This document shows, one piece after another, positions 2,837 to 33,724 of a stretch of 34,975 nt of DNA. The position numbers were made by a program, and so were the translations under genes. The notes under the pieces are model-generated. The model saw only the letters and a program-made list of their open reading frames with translations. It did no database searches and was not told where the DNA came from. The DNA lies in contig JAKQII010000114.1 in assembly GCA_029557535.1 (NCBI GenBank), positions 1 to 34,975 on the forward strand, in the 5' to 3' direction. Each line of letters opens with the position of its first letter. Position 1 is the stretch's first letter. The stretch comes from Acidobacteriota bacterium (lineage in GTDB: Bacteria > Acidobacteriota > Blastocatellia > Pyrinomonadales > Pyrinomonadaceae).

Positions 2837-4261
<1,425 letters not shown>

Positions 4262-4479
4262 TCAGAACCGGGAGCGGCCGCCAGCGGCAGATCGAAGGCA
4301 GGCGAGTCAGAGTCGGTTTCGGAAGCGACCGATTCAAACTTTTGAGTACGCCTTTGGAATGATCTCGATCGCAAGATCGTTCGAACGGATCGATATCGGG
4401 TTGCCGTTCTTTCCGACGGAGCGAACTGGACCCCGGTGTCGCCCGAAAGGATTTGTGCATTTATCGATGGCGGCGACGT

Positions 4480-6578: not shown

Positions 6579-6728
6579 GGAATTCCAGAATTCCAAATTC
6601 CAAGATTCCAAGATTCCAGGTTCAAGAGTTCAAGAGTTCAGGAGTTCAATCTCGTTCAAGGCAGGTTTCTTGACACGATTTGCCCAGACCTTAACGTGGA
6701 ATCTTGGAATTCTGGAATCTTGGAATCA
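6579..6728. repeat. GATTCCA/TTGGAATC array forming a long inverted repeat
   Basis: Left part (6579-6649) is built of AATTCCA and GATTCCA heptamers grading into TTCAAGAG units. Right part (6696-6728) is built of TGGAATCT units, the reverse complement of the left. A transcript could fold with arms of about 30 nt and a loop near 80 nt. The array fills the whole gap between the stop of the dehydrogenase gene and the start of the IscU-BFD gene. Confidence 0.85.
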
Positions 6729-10799: not shown

Positions 10800-13700
10800 A
10801 TGAAGGCGCAAAAGTTAAAGTCGATCTCACGGCAGCAGTCCGAGGAAGTCGGTCGCGCTGTCGAAGAAAAGCTTGCAGCCGGCTTCTCGGCACAGGCTGA
10901 GCAACTCCTCGTCGAGTCGCTGGAGAACTATAAGCACGCCCCGGACGACCTTGCGAACTTGCGCCGACTCCTTTCATACACTCTCGAAACACTCGGACGC
11001 TACAACGAAGCTCTCGACGCCATTAGTGACTACGAGAACGAAGAAGTTCTTCAAAAACTCCAACTTGAGACCCAACTCCGCGTTATCACTCAACTCGCGA
11101 TCGGATACAGCAACAATTCCGACTATCCGAAGGCAGCGACGTTGCTCAAAGAAACGCTCCAGAAGGCGCAGTTCGCCGAACTGACAAGTGTTTTGGGCGT
11201 TATCTACAATGCGTTGTCGCGCGTCTACCGGAAACTGAACCAGCATTCGATCTCGGCGGGTTACGCGACCGAAGCGCTGAACAACTTTCGCGAGAACGGC
11301 GACTGGTACGGGATGGCCGAAGCCTACCAGTTGATCGCGACCGCGTCGTATCAGGAAGGTAATATCGAGCGCTCGCTTGAGAATTACGAATTTGCGATCA
11401 AGATTATCGGCGACCGTGCCGCGCCGTTCCTTCTCGGACGAATCTATTCCGATCTTTCGGGCGTTTACTGGCTCCTCAGACGTCCGCAGGACGGGATCGC
11501 GTGTCTCGAAAAATCGATCAAGTTCTTCGACCAGACGGATCATCGACTGAATTCGGTGATCGCATACAACAATCTCGGCATGAACCTAATGCTGATCGGT
11601 GACTGGTCGCGGGCCGAACAGAATCTCAAGGTCGCGCTCGAGATCGCGACCGAAGCCAATCACGCGCACGTCGCGGGCGTCCTCGATTCGCTTGGCGAAT
11701 TGCAAATGCTCCGCGGGAAGCTCGAGGAAGCGTGCGAGATGTTCGGGCGCAGCATCGACTTTGCTCTCGAGCGCAAGCGCGAGTGGTACGTGATCCAATC
11801 ACTGCGCAACCTGGGTCGGTGTTATCTGGCGGCGAACCAACCGGACAAAGCGATCGAAGCAACGGAAAGAGCGATCGAGATCTGCCGTGTCGTCGGTGAA
11901 AAGCATATTCTTTACATGGTGCGGCTTGTCCTTGCCGAGGCGCATCTGGAACTGGGCGATCTCGAAAAGTGCGAGGAAGAATTGAAGTCGATCGAGGAAG
12001 CGGAGCCGACGAACGACTTCTTCGTGCTCGGGACGATCCAGCGGATCCGGGGTCTTTCGGCGCTGGAGAACGGCGACGAACAAACCGCCGCTTATCATTT
12101 CAACCGCGCCCTGACGATCTTCGAAACTGCGGAAGACCTTTATCACATAGCCTTGACGCGATTCCTGCTGGGGCGCACCGTATCGGAGTCCGATCCCGCA
12201 ACGGCCATAAAACATTTGATATCGGCGAGCGAGGTCTTTCGCAAATTGGGCGTCGACGGATTTTATGAAGGTTCGGAAAGGCTGATCGCGAAGCTCAAAA
12301 GCGCCGGCGAACCCACCAAAAAACCCGGCGTCAGCGCGGGCTCGCAATTGCTCATGCTCCGGCTTGCCGAGGCGACTGCGTCGCGCGAACTGCTTTTCCG
12401 CGAATTGGTTGCGGTGCTTCGCCAGGAAGGGAAAGCGCGACGTATCATCGTCACCGAAACCGGTGAGGGACGCCGCCTGTTTCCATTCATTTCGCAGGAT
12501 TTCACGCCACAGGAGGCGGCGGAACTCGTCGACAACCTGCAGCAGGCGATTCTGAAGGGCAAACTCGAAGATTTCGCAAAGACGAAGAACATGGCAGTCT
12601 TCGATCTAAAGGCTCCGAACGCCCCGCCGGCGATGCTGTTGCTCTTTCCGCGTTCGGGCGCCGTTCTCAACGACGGAGGTTCGATCGAGCCGCTGCTGCG
12701 CGTTGTTTCGCTCGGAATGGATGTCTGCGCTCTGCGAGACAAAGACCGCTACAAGCAGGTCGACACCGAGGCGAGCCCGTACATTTCCAGCAATCTCATG
12801 CCGGGCTTCATCCATTCGTCGCCGGCGATGACCGCGCTTGTCGAAGAGGTTTACAAGATAAGATCGTCGGACGTAACGGTGCTCGTCACCGGCGAATCGG
12901 GAACCGGCAAGGAACTCGTGTCGCGCGCGATCCACGCGATATCGAACCGCAAGGACCGCGTCTTCATTCCATTCAATTGTACGGCCGTACCGAAGGAACT
13001 GGCGGAAGGTCATCTCTTCGGATACCGTAAAGGCGCCTTTACGGGCGCTGTCAGCGACTCGCCCGGCATGATCCGCGCGGCCCATGGCGGCACGCTTTTC
13101 CTTGACGAGGTCGGAGATCTCCCGCTCGACGTCCAACCGAAACTTCTCAGATTCCTGCAGGAAGGTGAGGTTCAGCCGATCGGCGAAAAGACCCCGATCA
13201 AGGTCGATGTGCGCGTCATCGCGGCAACGAACATGCTGCTTGAGCAAAAGGTCGCCGACGGCAGTTTCCGCGAGGACTTGTATTATCGGCTTAATGTCAT
13301 CCGGCTGCGCGTACCGCCGCTTCGGGAGCGGAGAACGGAAATCCCGCCGATCATCAACTATTACATCAACCATTATTCGTCCCGTTTCGGAAAGCGCGGA
13401 ATCACGATCACGCCGCAGACGATAGATCTCCTGATGGTGTGTGAATGGGAAGGAAACGTCCGGCAGCTATGCAACGAGATTCAGCGCATCGTCGCGCGGG
13501 CCGAGGACGGCGACGTGATAACTCCGAACAGCCTTTCGGCCGAACTCAAGCGCAGCGCCACACCGATCGCGCCGCTCGACGGTCTTGAAAACGTACGGAC
13601 GATCTCGTCGGTCGGCGGATTCGGCGGTTACAGCGTTGGGAAGCAGGGATCGACTCTTGAAGAAGCCGTTTCGGAACTCGAAACTCAGATGATACAGGAT

Positions 13701-13811
13701 GCGTTGCGTCGGCACGACTGGAACATATCCCGCGTCGCCCGCGAACTCGGACTTACCCGCCGCGGACTCTACCTGAAGATCGAGCGATACGGAATCGAAC
13801 GAGCAGCCTAG
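10800..13811 (+). CDS. Sigma54-dependent activator with TPR sensor half
   Basis: 1003-aa cytosolic transcription activator. Residues about 15-500 are a row of TPR helices (for example DWYGMAEAYQLIATASYQEGN and REWYVIQSLRNLGRCYLAANQ), a likely protein-binding sensor. Residues about 515-650 form a less clear linker, perhaps GAF-like (RRIIVTETGEGRRLFPF). The AAA+ sigma54 domain covers about 665-895 with Walker A GESGTGKE (698-705), the GAFTGA sigma54-contact loop (745-750), Walker B GGTLFLDE (763-770) and an LNVIRLRVPPLRER sensor region. A Fis-type helix-turn-helix ends the protein (NISRVARELGLTRRGLYLKIERYG). There is no receiver domain, so it is not a classical response regulator. The start ATG overlaps an AGG; a GGGAT sits 13 bases upstream. 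It is divergent from the glucosidase unit, a possible target. Confidence 0.93.
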   Translation: MKAQKLKSISRQQSEEVGRAVEEKLAAGFSAQAEQLLVESLENYKHAPDDLANLRRLLSYTLETLGRYNEALDAISDYENEEVLQKLQLETQLRVITQLAIGYSNNSDYPKAATLLKETLQKAQFAELTSVLGVIYNALSRVYRKLNQHSISAGYATEALNNFRENGDWYGMAEAYQLIATASYQEGNIERSLENYEFAIKIIGDRAAPFLLGRIYSDLSGVYWLLRRPQDGIACLEKSIKFFDQTDHRLNSVIAYNNLGMNLMLIGDWSRAEQNLKVALEIATEANHAHVAGVLDSLGELQMLRGKLEEACEMFGRSIDFALERKREWYVIQSLRNLGRCYLAANQPDKAIEATERAIEICRVVGEKHILYMVRLVLAEAHLELGDLEKCEEELKSIEEAEPTNDFFVLGTIQRIRGLSALENGDEQTAAYHFNRALTIFETAEDLYHIALTRFLLGRTVSESDPATAIKHLISASEVFRKLGVDGFYEGSERLIAKLKSAGEPTKKPGVSAGSQLLMLRLAEATASRELLFRELVAVLRQEGKARRIIVTETGEGRRLFPFISQDFTPQEAAELVDNLQQAILKGKLEDFAKTKNMAVFDLKAPNAPPAMLLLFPRSGAVLNDGGSIEPLLRVVSLGMDVCALRDKDRYKQVDTEASPYISSNLMPGFIHSSPAMTALVEEVYKIRSSDVTVLVTGESGTGKELVSRAIHAISNRKDRVFIPFNCTAVPKELAEGHLFGYRKGAFTGAVSDSPGMIRAAHGGTLFLDEVGDLPLDVQPKLLRFLQEGEVQPIGEKTPIKVDVRVIAATNMLLEQKVADGSFREDLYYRLNVIRLRVPPLRERRTEIPPIINYYINHYSSRFGKRGITITPQTIDLLMVCEWEGNVRQLCNEIQRIVARAEDGDVITPNSLSAELKRSATPIAPLDGLENVRTISSVGGFGGYSVGKQGSTLEEAVSELETQMIQDALRRHDWNISRVARELGLTRRGLYLKIERYGIERAA

Positions 13812-13866: not shown

Positions 13867-14020
13867 GGGAATCCAGATTCCAGGATTCCAAATTCCATGA
13901 TTCCAACATTCCTGGCGCTCCACGCCGGGGCATGAAAAACAATGAAGCTGCGAAGGCACGTCTCGAACCTTGAATCTTGAATTTCGAATCGAAGCGCTGG
14001 AATCATGGAATTTTGAAATC
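13867..14020. repeat. GATTCCA-type array with a 16-bp perfect inverted repeat
   Basis: Between convergent genes. The left part (13867-13912) is a run of AATCCAGATTCCAGGATTCC-like units. The 16-mer AAATTCCATGATTCCA at 13890-13905 is exactly complementary to 13998-14013, whose right arm covers the stop codon of the universal stress protein gene. The loop is 92 nt. A small CCGCC-TTCA-GGCGG hairpin at 13821-13834 follows the activator stop but lacks a T-run. Confidence 0.8.
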
Positions 14021-30092: not shown

Positions 30093-31517
30093 ATGCAACT
30101 TGATTCGGTGAACTCCGTTTCGGAAACGGAGAACAACGCTTTTTGGGCCGTTGTGCGTGAGGCATTCGTCGGTTCGACCCGTGACTTCACGAAGGGCTCG
30201 ATCGGCGTCGCGATATTCATTCTCAGTGTCCCGATGATCATCGAGATGTTCGCGGAGAGTCTCTTTGCGCTCTTCGATATCTTTTTCGTGGCACATTTGG
30301 GAGCCGACGCGGTCGCGGTCGTCGGTTTGACGGAATCGATGATGGCGCTCGTTTACGCCGTTGCTTTCGGACTCGCGATCGGCGCGACTGCAACCGTTGC
30401 TCGTCGGATCGGCGAAAAGGATCTCGACGGCGCGGCCAAGACGGCGACGCATGTCCTTTATCTCGGCGTCATCGTCTCGATCGCGATGAGCATTCCCGGG
30501 ATCATTCTCGCCCCGGCGATTTTAAGGATACTCGGCGCTGAGCCGCAGGTGATCGAAGCCGGCGTAACGTTCATGCGGATCATGCTCGGCTGCAACGCCG
30601 CCGTCGTGTTTATCTTCCTGCTCAACGCGATCTTTCGCGGCGCCGGCGATGCGGCAATCGCGATGCGCGTGCTTTGGTTCGCAAATGTCCTGAACATAAT
30701 CCTTGCGCCGTGCTTCATATTCGGCGTCGCATTTTTCCCGCAATTGGGAGTCACCGGTGCGGCCGTCGGAACGACGCTCGGACGAAGCGCCGGCGTGCTT
30801 TACGCGCTCTGGTTTCTGTTTCGCGGCGAAAAGCGATTCGAGATTCATCGCGATCATTGGAAGCTTGACCCGGAACTGCTGGTGAGGATCGTGAAGCTGT
30901 CGGCCACCGCAGTTTTCCAGTTTCTGATCGGCACCGCGAGTTGGAGCGTCCTGGTAAGGGTCGTCGCGGGTTTCGGCAGCGTCGCAATCGCGGGATACGT
31001 CATCGGCTTGCGCGTGATAGTTTTCGCGCTTTTACCGGCGCTCGGTTTGAGCAATGCGGCGGCGACGCTCGTTGGGCAGAACCTCGGTGCAGGTAAGCCG
31101 GGAAGGGCCGAACGATCGGTTTGGACTGCCTCGATCGTGAACGCCGTGATTTACGGGGCGATCGGATTGGTCTTCGTGTTTCTCGCTGTTCCGATCGTCA
31201 AGATCTTCACGCAGGATCCGGAGATCACCGGCTACGCTGTGTCGTGTTTGCGGATCGTTTCGTACGGATTTCTGTTCTACGGATTCGGGATGGTGCTCGA
31301 ATCGGCATTCAACGGCGCCGGAGATACCTGGACACCGACGTACATCAACCTTTGTCTCTTCTGGCTGTTCGAGATCCCGTTGGCTTACGTCCTCGCGTAC
31401 GTCTTCGATCTTGGTCCGCAGGGCGTCTTCTGGGCGATCATGATCGCATTTTCGGCGCTCGCGGTCGTTTCCGCGCTGCTTTTCAGCCGAGGGAAGTGGA
31501 AACTGAAGAAAGTTTGA
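30093..31517 (+). CDS. MATE family efflux transporter
   Basis: 474-aa inner-membrane exporter using Na+ or H+ gradients. About 12 helices lie in two similar halves: the first starts IFILSVPMIIEMFAESLFALFDIFFVAHLGADAVAVVGL, the classical MATE N-terminal signature, and AIFRGAGDAAIAM ends its conserved loop. The second half has ALGLSNAAATLVGQNLGAGKPGRAERS and SAFNGAGDTWTPT, the repeated pattern. Relatives expel cationic drugs, dyes or metabolites; substrate is not predictable. The N-terminal ~35 residues are polar and cytosolic. It has its own promoter and no clear Shine-Dalgarno (AGGTTTTTT before the ATG). A purine/pyrimidine repeat with a 17-bp hairpin lies directly downstream. Confidence 0.93.
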   Translation: MQLDSVNSVSETENNAFWAVVREAFVGSTRDFTKGSIGVAIFILSVPMIIEMFAESLFALFDIFFVAHLGADAVAVVGLTESMMALVYAVAFGLAIGATATVARRIGEKDLDGAAKTATHVLYLGVIVSIAMSIPGIILAPAILRILGAEPQVIEAGVTFMRIMLGCNAAVVFIFLLNAIFRGAGDAAIAMRVLWFANVLNIILAPCFIFGVAFFPQLGVTGAAVGTTLGRSAGVLYALWFLFRGEKRFEIHRDHWKLDPELLVRIVKLSATAVFQFLIGTASWSVLVRVVAGFGSVAIAGYVIGLRVIVFALLPALGLSNAAATLVGQNLGAGKPGRAERSVWTASIVNAVIYGAIGLVFVFLAVPIVKIFTQDPEITGYAVSCLRIVSYGFLFYGFGMVLESAFNGAGDTWTPTYINLCLFWLFEIPLAYVLAYVFDLGPQGVFWAIMIAFSALAVVSALLFSRGKWKLKKV

Positions 31518-31522
31518 GCCGA

Positions 31523-31806
31523 TAAAAAGGGAAAAGGGGAAAAGTGAAAAAGGGGAAAAGGGGGAAAGTGCAGGAGATCGATATCCTTTTCACTTTTCCC
31601 CGTTTTCACTCTTAACCTTTTAGCCTTTCCCCTTTTTCACTTTTCCCCTTTTCCCTTTCCCCTTTTCCCCTTTTTCACTTTTCCCCTTTTCCCTTTCCCC
31701 TTTTCCCCTTTTCCCCTTTTCCCCTTTTCCCCTTTTCCCATTTCCCCTTTCCCCCTTTTCCCCTTTTCCCATTTCCCCTTTTTCACTTTTTCCTTTTTAC
31801 TTTCTA
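31523..31806. repeat. G4A4/C4T4 tract, 284 bp, inverted, upstream of asnB
   Basis: A purine arm (31523-31570) of GGGGAAAA and GTGAAAAA units is followed by a short unique spacer and about 220 bp (31586-31806) of pure C/T made of CCCCTTTT units with interspersed TTTCAC and CCCATTT. GGGGAAAAGTGAAAA (31536-31550) pairs with TTTTCACTTTTCCCC (31587-31601), so a hairpin of about 17 bp can form. The tract fills the entire gap between MATE stop and asnB start. Its minus strand has more than 20 G runs. Confidence 0.9.
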
Positions 31807-31810
31807 AAGG

Positions 31811-33724
31811 ATGTGCGGAATTGCCGGACTGATCACGAACAACCCTGAAAAGTCGATCGGCCCGATGCTCAAATCGATCGAGCACCGCGGCTTTGACGAC
31901 GCGGGCGTTTTTGTCTCCGAACCTTTTGGCGACGGGCTGCGGGCGTGCCTCGGACACAAACGGCTCTCCATCATCGATACCTCTGAGGGCGGCCATCAGC
32001 CGTTCTCGTCGGCCGACGGGCGTTTGGCGATGACGTACAACGGCGAACTATACAACTTCCGCGATCTACGCTCACGCATGGAATCGCGCGGACACTCATT
32101 TCGGACCGAGTCGGACACTGAGGTCTTGATCGAGAGCCTTCGCGAACGCGGAACCGAATGTCTGACGGACCTCAACGGGATGTTCGCCTTCGCCGTTTGG
32201 GACGACCGCGAAAGGACGCTGACGCTCGTACGCGACCGCGCCGGGATCAAACCGGTATATTACGCCGAGATTGAAGGCGGTATCGTTTTTGCCTCGGAAA
32301 TCAAGGCGATTCTCGCGTCGGGATTGATCCGGCCTGAACTCGATCGCGAAGGTCTTCATCAATTCCTGACATTCCTTTGGACGGTACCGCCGCATACACT
32401 GTTTGCAGGGATCAAACAACTACCGCCGGGGCATTTTCTTGTTTGGAAAAACGGTCGAACGACCGTCCGCGAATGGTGGGACCTCGACTTTTCATTCGAA
32501 GAGGCGGATACAAATGAAAAGCGTTGGTGCGATCGCGTTCTTGAGACGCTCGACCGAGCGGTCGAGATGGAAATGGTCTCGGACGTTCCGCTCGGCGCGT
32601 TCCTTTCAGGCGGCGTCGATTCGTCGTCGATCGTCGCGCTGATGTCGAAACATGCGAAACGCGTTTCGACATACACGACAGGGATCTCGGCGGACGATCT
32701 CGAGTTTGACATCATCCCGGACGACGTCGAATGGTCGCGGTACGTCGCCAAGCTGCTCCCCGTGGATTACCATGAGACCTTGCTCACGGCCGATGTCACC
32801 GACCTTCTGCCGAAACTCGTCTGGCACATGGACGCGCCGGTTATCGACATGGCGATCCCGTCATATCTGATCTCGAAACAATCCCGCGAAACGCAGAAAG
32901 TAATGCTCTCGGGAATGGGCGGCGACGAGGTTTTTGCCGGTTATCCGCGGCAGATGGCGATGAAGCTCTCGGGCGCGACGGACTTGATTCCGTCGATGAT
33001 CCGAAGACCACTGATGCGGGCGATCGATTCCGCGCTCTACGGCGGCGTCAAGGGAAAACTGACGGCTCCGCTGAGAAACGCGAAGAAATTTGCGCGCAGT
33101 GCCGGCATGGATTTTGAAGATCGCTACCTCGGATTCGGCACGTATTTCACGGACGAAATGAAGAGACGGATCTATTCGAGAGAACTGGCACCGTCGATGT
33201 CCGGGTTCGACGCTTTTCGATACCATCGAGGGTACTTCGAGAGGTCTCGGTCGTGGTCGCCGCTCAACCGGTTGCTTTACGTCGATTTCAAGACCTTCAT
33301 GCCGGCGCTGAATCTCGACACGACGGACAAGACATCGATGGCGGCCAACCTCGAGGTCCGCGTCCCGTTTCTCAATCACGACCTCGTAACGCTCGCCGAG
33401 CGGTTGCCGTCAAATCTCAAAATAAAAGGAATCAAGCGAAAGTATGTTCTCAAGAAGGCGGCTGAGGCGCTGCTTCCGAAGGACGTGATTTGGCGAAAGA
33501 AAGCGGGATTCTCGGCGCCGGTCAGGTCGTGGGTGCGAACGTCGTTGCGCCCGATGATCGATGATCTGCTGTCCAAGGAGACGATAAAGCGACGGGGACT
33601 TTTTGATTCGGACGAAGTCCGGCGCCTTATCGACCTCAATCATTCAGGCCGCGAGGACTACAACCTTCAGGTCTTCCAATTGCTCAATCTTGAGCTTTGG
33701 ATGCGGGCATTTATTGATCGCTGA
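31811..33724 (+). CDS. asnB: Asparagine synthetase, glutamine-hydrolysing
   Basis: 637-aa class II amidotransferase that makes asparagine (or amidates another carboxylate) from glutamine and ATP. The protein begins MCGIAGLI, so Cys2 becomes the N-terminal nucleophile; RLSIIDTSEGGHQP, YNGELYNFRDLR and SDTEVLIE complete the glutaminase pocket. The synthetase half has the ATP pyrophosphatase loop LSGGVDSSSIVAL (about 265-277) and LSGMGGDEVFAGYPR. VRVPFLNHDLVTLAERLP and KRKYVLKKAAEALLP are the conserved C-terminal motifs. The length is that of the longer AsnB group often found in polysaccharide loci, so a glycan- or peptide-modifying role is an alternative. The only purine run near the start, AAAGG, touches the ATG, so ribosome loading is unusual. 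Its 3' end is 3 bp from the convergent lpxA. Confidence 0.92.
   Translation: MCGIAGLITNNPEKSIGPMLKSIEHRGFDDAGVFVSEPFGDGLRACLGHKRLSIIDTSEGGHQPFSSADGRLAMTYNGELYNFRDLRSRMESRGHSFRTESDTEVLIESLRERGTECLTDLNGMFAFAVWDDRERTLTLVRDRAGIKPVYYAEIEGGIVFASEIKAILASGLIRPELDREGLHQFLTFLWTVPPHTLFAGIKQLPPGHFLVWKNGRTTVREWWDLDFSFEEADTNEKRWCDRVLETLDRAVEMEMVSDVPLGAFLSGGVDSSSIVALMSKHAKRVSTYTTGISADDLEFDIIPDDVEWSRYVAKLLPVDYHETLLTADVTDLLPKLVWHMDAPVIDMAIPSYLISKQSRETQKVMLSGMGGDEVFAGYPRQMAMKLSGATDLIPSMIRRPLMRAIDSALYGGVKGKLTAPLRNAKKFARSAGMDFEDRYLGFGTYFTDEMKRRIYSRELAPSMSGFDAFRYHRGYFERSRSWSPLNRLLYVDFKTFMPALNLDTTDKTSMAANLEVRVPFLNHDLVTLAERLPSNLKIKGIKRKYVLKKAAEALLPKDVIWRKKAGFSAPVRSWVRTSLRPMIDDLLSKETIKRRGLFDSDEVRRLIDLNHSGREDYNLQVFQLLNLELWMRAFIDR

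Follow-up and report, generated by a model that had tools for sequence, protein, structure and literature searches.

A tandem-octamer array with inverted arms at the MATE–asnB junction is one of a family of repeats at gene junctions in a Pyrinomonadaceae genome

In the window analysed here (the whole stretch of 34,975 nucleotides, from a member of the Pyrinomonadaceae, Acidobacteriota), the spacer separating a MATE family transporter gene from asnB is occupied by tandem octamers arranged as two inverted arms, and arrays of the same family are found at gene junctions throughout the genome, where about half of the internal sites would form a repeat-armed stem–loop. We propose, with a confidence that we would call evenly poised, that these arrays are rapidly turning-over tandem-repeat hairpins at gene 3' ends, having a role at the RNA level and changing by slippage together with copying from arm to arm. 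Such an element would probably act on the RNA at the gene end, through either termination or 3'-end protection.

The positions of the features are collected in Table 1. The MATE stop codon (TGA) lies at 31517 and the asnB ATG at 31811, leaving a spacer of 293 bp (31518-31810), and the repeat block at 31524-31805 fills it with low-complexity purine-then-pyrimidine DNA and a hairpin, as the preliminary description had stated. That description had also named it the longest simple-sequence block of the window, in agreement with the tandem-repeat search (TRF), where this array is the top-scoring one: the right arm appears with period 8, 27.8 copies and a score of 232 over 31585-31798, and an overlapping row of period 38 scores 234. 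Its reading as a C4T4 expansion holds for the period-8 array but not for the purity of the unit, since in the right arm C4T4 is interspersed with TTTTTCAC, CCCTTT and similar variants. Expansion by slippage, which had likewise been suggested, appears plausible in view of an exact 38-bp tandem duplication and of the different unit that a congener has at its orthologous junction; to judge from its sequence, the duplication is the footprint of a recent expansion.

Table 1. Coordinates of the array between MATE and asnB, of its neighbouring genes and of a second array in the window
Feature	Position	Strand	Details
MATE family transporter gene	30093..31517	+	ORF; Pfam MatE E=1.9e-63; upstream of array
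Left (purine) arm	31524..31568	+	45 bp, ~5.6 octamers AAAAGGGG/AAAAGTGA; onset 6 bp past MATE stop
5' arm of best inverted repeat	31526..31566	+	41 nt, 98% complementary to 31656-31696; inverted-repeat search, RNA fold
Non-repeat core separating arms	31569..31583		15 bp
Right (pyrimidine) arm	31584..31805	+	222 bp, ~28 octamers CCCCTTTT/TTTTTCAC and variants; finishes 5 bp short of asnB ATG
Exact tandem duplication within right arm	31629..31704		38-bp block
3' arm of best inverted repeat	31656..31696	+	inverted-repeat search, RNA fold
asnB, glutamine-hydrolysing asparagine synthetase	31811..33724	+	ORF; Pfam Asn_synthase and GATase_7; downstream of array
Second array, one-armed, same octamer family	4176..4239	purine on +	49 bp from start of minus-strand gene 2837-4126

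A hairpin of 17 bp had originally been described in this spacer; the arms of the best inverted repeat proved far longer (Table 1). The spacer RNA is predicted to fold with −82.6 kcal/mol (z = −7.8), and none of 200 shuffled sequences folded as well. In a transcript that runs on past MATE, the purine arm would pair with the pyrimidine arm to give a long hairpin with unpaired, C/U-rich RNA on its 3' side, and this combination may lead to transcript termination (hairpin- and/or Rho-assisted) or to protection of the 3' end. Transcripts of the opposite strand would adopt an equal fold, again with the purine arm first and the pyrimidine arm second. We consider assistance by Rho possible because the RNA of the right arm is nearly free of G and rich in C and U. 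The earlier suggestion that the hairpin acts on the ends of MATE transcripts is plausible. The consensus scan for intrinsic (Rho-independent) terminators detected none at this array: instead of the compact GC-rich stem with a loop of 3-8 nt and a T run that such terminators have, a long stem is predicted. An Rfam scan of the whole window returned no match.

The octamer family was then followed across the genome, a MAG of 4.77 Mb in 404 contigs. A two-unit pattern with one mismatch allowed gave 525 matches genome-wide, far above chance. The exact 24-mer (CCCCTTTT)3 occurs 72 times in the MAG, in one or two copies in two of the three congeners, and not at all in the other relatives searched. We read 49 array sites, of which 17 are no more than 350 bp away from a contig end, about six times the expected rate (expected 6%, p=1.5e-9); therefore, the true number of sites is probably greater than 49. 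The octamer arrays fragment the assembly of this genome, which indicates one way in which MAG assemblies come to be broken. The same excess at contig ends would also fit an assembly artefact, with the length or the joining of the arrays being wrong, and the exact length of the MATE–asnB array may be affected by misassembly. Overall, an artefact seems to us extremely improbable, as the MATE–asnB array lies inside its contig, away from the ends, and dozens of sites, as well as other assemblies, show such arms and units independently.

The preliminary description had suggested that the array could act as a contingency locus tuning asnB. In such a locus, the number of units would vary from cell to cell and set the expression of asnB, whose start codon the array abuts. 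The short distance between the array and the asnB ATG (Table 1) and the recent expansion recorded by the 38-bp duplication are in line with this idea; moreover, no promoter-like site was found within 31300-32000, so that spacing could matter. Nevertheless, a switch specific to asnB is not favoured, because arrays of this family adjoin many different, apparently unrelated genes at 49 or more sites (formal annotation covering only MATE, asnB and the neighbour of asnB), and in the congener G002 an asnB with an orthologous junction carries another repeat. We consequently rate the contingency locus as quite improbable; for comparable heptamers, phase variation was also judged unlikely (Rehm et al. 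2015, PMC4692102).

By inspection, the spacers and flanks appear to differ among the array sites; copies of a REP or MITE would have a conserved element body or terminal repeats in common. The second array of the window (Table 1) has its pyrimidine strand as the sense strand of the minus-strand gene 2837-4126. As a separate observation, a dispersed REP-like repeat, CAGAACCGGGAGCGGTAGC, has copies at 4263-4281 and 172-190, with 47 matches in the genome and none in a reversed control; some of them fall within ~150 bp of A4G4 arrays. Exact A4G4 arrays are also present in Desulfobacterota, Luteitalea, Thermoanaerobaculales, Methylomicrobium and others. By inspection, several of these outside arrays closely follow a stop codon, their purine strand being the sense strand, and some (L063, L068, L076 and L077) show the purine-then-pyrimidine order.

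The array sites obey strict rules of placement relative to the flanking genes. Specifically, the purine arm is on the left and the pyrimidine arm on the right in 15 out of 15 two-armed sites, and 19 of the 20 one-armed sites flanked by genes on both sides carry their arm on the expected side. Arm borders lie within tens of bases of start or stop codons, frequently with a 2-bp overlap of the codon. Convergent junctions outnumber divergent ones by 12 to 2 (p=0.013), and neither of the latter two is beyond doubt (L018, and L037, which lies within a gene). An RNA-level role is suggested because the purine-5'/pyrimidine-3' geometry holds on both strands, the arrays are placed at gene ends, convergent junctions are enriched and plain short hairpins stand at some array-free junctions of congeners; on these grounds we infer an effect on RNA. 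A strong hairpin is present at 14 of the 31 internal A4G4 sites, while the other 17 are one-armed, and this argues against such a role, as does the negative terminator scan.

The one-armed sites also fit a neutral origin, which is the main rival explanation. According to it, these would be neutral or selfish simple repeats, expanding by slippage and spreading through template switching, whose presence is tolerated only if promoters and genes are left unharmed; the hairpin would be a by-product of the way in which the arrays grow. We regard this as quite possible, if well short of even probability. One unit family is expanded in the species of the MAG only, and selection against promoter damage would equally yield the avoidance of divergent junctions. 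In addition, an A4G4 array at L037:1369-1457 lies in frame within the ORF of a membrane protein; at the same place the congener G003 has AAAAGTGA-type repeats with an inverted arm, both in frame in the coding sequence, G001 has a TTTTCCA heptamer, and G002 has none. The array within the L037 ORF and the in-frame arms of G003 fit neutral expansion better and count against termination. Slippage alone, however, does not account for the strict polarity of the arms, nor for the preference of hairpins for convergent junctions, seen with many unrelated units. A mobile insertion at the L037 gene was also considered and discarded, given that two congeners already carry other short repeats at that place and growth in situ fits better.

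Junctions were sampled in the MAG and in two congeners, 478 altogether. A hairpin was found at 163 of them, compared to 2 in shuffled sequence, and it was present at 49 of 78 convergent versus 13 of 82 divergent junctions (p=9e-10). Among the hairpins with repeat arms, G exceeds C in the left arm of 47, and C exceeds G there in 11 (p=2e-6). The intergenic tandem arrays of the sampled genomes have periods of almost only 7, 8 and 9 (or 14), and their units include TTTCGGA, AGTCTTG, GAGAAGAG, AACTTCCCA, GCGCAAAG, CTTTTTCA and more.

Among the three congeners, only G002 has an orthologue of the MATE–asnB junction (asnB 78% identical), the upstream neighbours of asnB being different in G003 and G001. 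In this case, the junction reads (TTTCGGA)n...(TCCGAAA)n, and the right arm formed by this unit contains no U run, a finding which speaks against termination. Different units were also observed at other orthologous junctions: GAGAAGAG in G002 and AAAAGTGA in G003 at L053; GCGCAAAG/GCGCGAAG/GCGCGGAG/GCGCAGAG in G002, the variants following the same order in both arms, and A4G4 in G003 at L055; CACAAAGA in G003 at L050. At L035, G002 carries GAGAAGAG and G003 a plain hairpin. By inspection, some congener junctions devoid of an array show a short, plain hairpin and a T run, namely L054 in both, L035 in G003 and L028 in G002. Arrays occur at the same junction above background in G003 (p=0.015-0.023) and not significantly in G002, where arrays are very common; overall, the signal that arrays persist at a given junction more than background is weak. 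A further observation concerns the region 5' of asnB in G003 and G001 (L082, L083), where a TATAAT precedes the ATG by less than 15 nt, suggesting a leaderless asnB mRNA; in the window, the repeat array ends at the equivalent place.

The two arms of one site have rare k-mers in common more often than arms of different sites do (permutation p 0.002-0.009 with common k-mers dropped; weak, p 0.02-0.09, with all k-mers kept). Here we infer a copying mechanism: the arrays would grow and change by replication slippage, while the complementarity of the arms may be upheld by arm-to-arm copying (hairpin templating) or by selection for pairing, and over time the unit could be exchanged and the junction hairpin persist. 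A broader version of this proposal, which we put forward tentatively and consider rather doubtful, is that the stem–loop of a junction is kept as its unit is swapped for an unrelated 7-9-mer, and that one unit type spreads within one species to dozens of junctions (concerted evolution by inter-locus copying), which would make these arrays 3'-end elements conserving structure and not sequence.

The G-runs of the arms raise the alternative of a G-quadruplex element, in which each arm, with its four or more G-runs, would adopt a G4 structure as DNA or RNA and control the adjacent gene. Repeats of GGGGAAAA satisfy the G-run pattern, and G4 formation in vitro has been described for comparable G-rich heptamers (PMC4692102). 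On the other hand, repeat hairpins at orthologous junctions are built from units without G-runs (GCGCAAAG, CACAAAGA and AAAAGTGA), and TTTCGGA has only GG. These units argue against the G-quadruplex as the common denominator of the junctions, and we consider an element of this kind improbable. The retention of hairpin geometry with such units at some junctions points to the inverted arms, and not to G4, as the shared feature.

The closest known repeats are the heptamers GGGNATC (GGGAATC) of Xanthomonas and GGGGAYT of Nostoc, intergenic tandem repeats distributed genome-wide (Rehm et al. 2015, PMC4692102). Their G-rich strand is the coding strand just past a stop codon or the non-coding strand just before a start codon; inverted pairs are in convergent orientation, and the repeats are under-represented between divergent genes (PMC4692102). 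They adjoin genes of all functions, no function was found for them, and 83% of the Xcc repeats are retained in Xac as G-rich repeats within an unchanged gene context (PMC4692102). The octamer arrays resemble them in the tandem repetition of G-run-containing units of 6-9 nt at numerous sites (period 8, AAAAGGGG, 49 sites), in the side rule of the G-rich strand and its closeness to the ORF, and in having convergent inverted pairs (order 15/15) and few divergent cases (12 vs 2). They differ in their 8-nt unit (AAAAGGGG/AAAAGTGA, not GGGNATC or GGGGAYT), in belonging to Acidobacteriota, and in that Pyrinomonadaceae relatives have other 7-9-mers, several of them without G-runs, at the same junctions. 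The octamer arrays are a variant of the kind described in 2015, outside its sequence family. That study left the function open and focused on G-quadruplexes (PMC4692102); the question of the inverted arms can be tested by comparing junctions across species.

The nearest precedent for unit replacement under a retained hairpin is the P6b stem–loop of the Nostoc tRNA-Leu intron, made of degenerate heptanucleotide repeats of Class 1 or Class 2 (PMC3488679). Like the octamer arrays it has both arms of its hairpin built from tandem repeats, with variable copy number and two repeat classes at one locus (PMC3488679); unlike them, it consists of heptamers and is confined to one intron locus, the octamer arrays being found at dozens of gene junctions. 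The TAACTGA direct repeats of Beggiatoaceae, Cyanobacteria and Bacteroidetes (MacGregor 2015, PMC4679880) are likewise short intergenic tandem units with many copies per genome, often by start codons, but they are direct, essentially without inverted arms, and use one fixed heptamer. Searches of the literature on the common unit strings, on terminators with repeat arms and on tandem repeats of Pyrinomonadaceae retrieved nothing relevant. Several families of repeated heptanucleotides coexist in one genome in the case of the cyanobacterial STRR heptamers of Calothrix, which differ from the octamer arrays in unit sequence and length. New here are the octamers in Acidobacteriota, the unrelated 7-9-mer hairpins at orthologous junctions of congeners, and the rare unit variants common to both arms of one site. 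Unit replacement under a retained hairpin is possibly a new evolutionary behaviour and indicates how bacteria might quickly rebuild hairpins at gene ends.

Other short-unit repeats were noticed in the same window and beyond asnB. At 6580-6649 and 6697-6727 there is a repeat-armed hairpin, with GATTCCA/AAGATTCC on the left and TGGAATCT on the right, and at 13868-13912 an array of 7-8-mers (GGATTCCA/AATTCCA) lies downstream of a 1003-aa ORF (10800-13811) resembling a putative sigma54-type regulator. Degenerate heptamers (AGTCCAG AGTCCAA AGTCTAA AGTCCAT) make up a near-perfect hairpin 3' of asnB in G001 (L083, ~2490-2580), the variants following the same order in both arms, and the same junction of G003 has CGCGAAATA arms.
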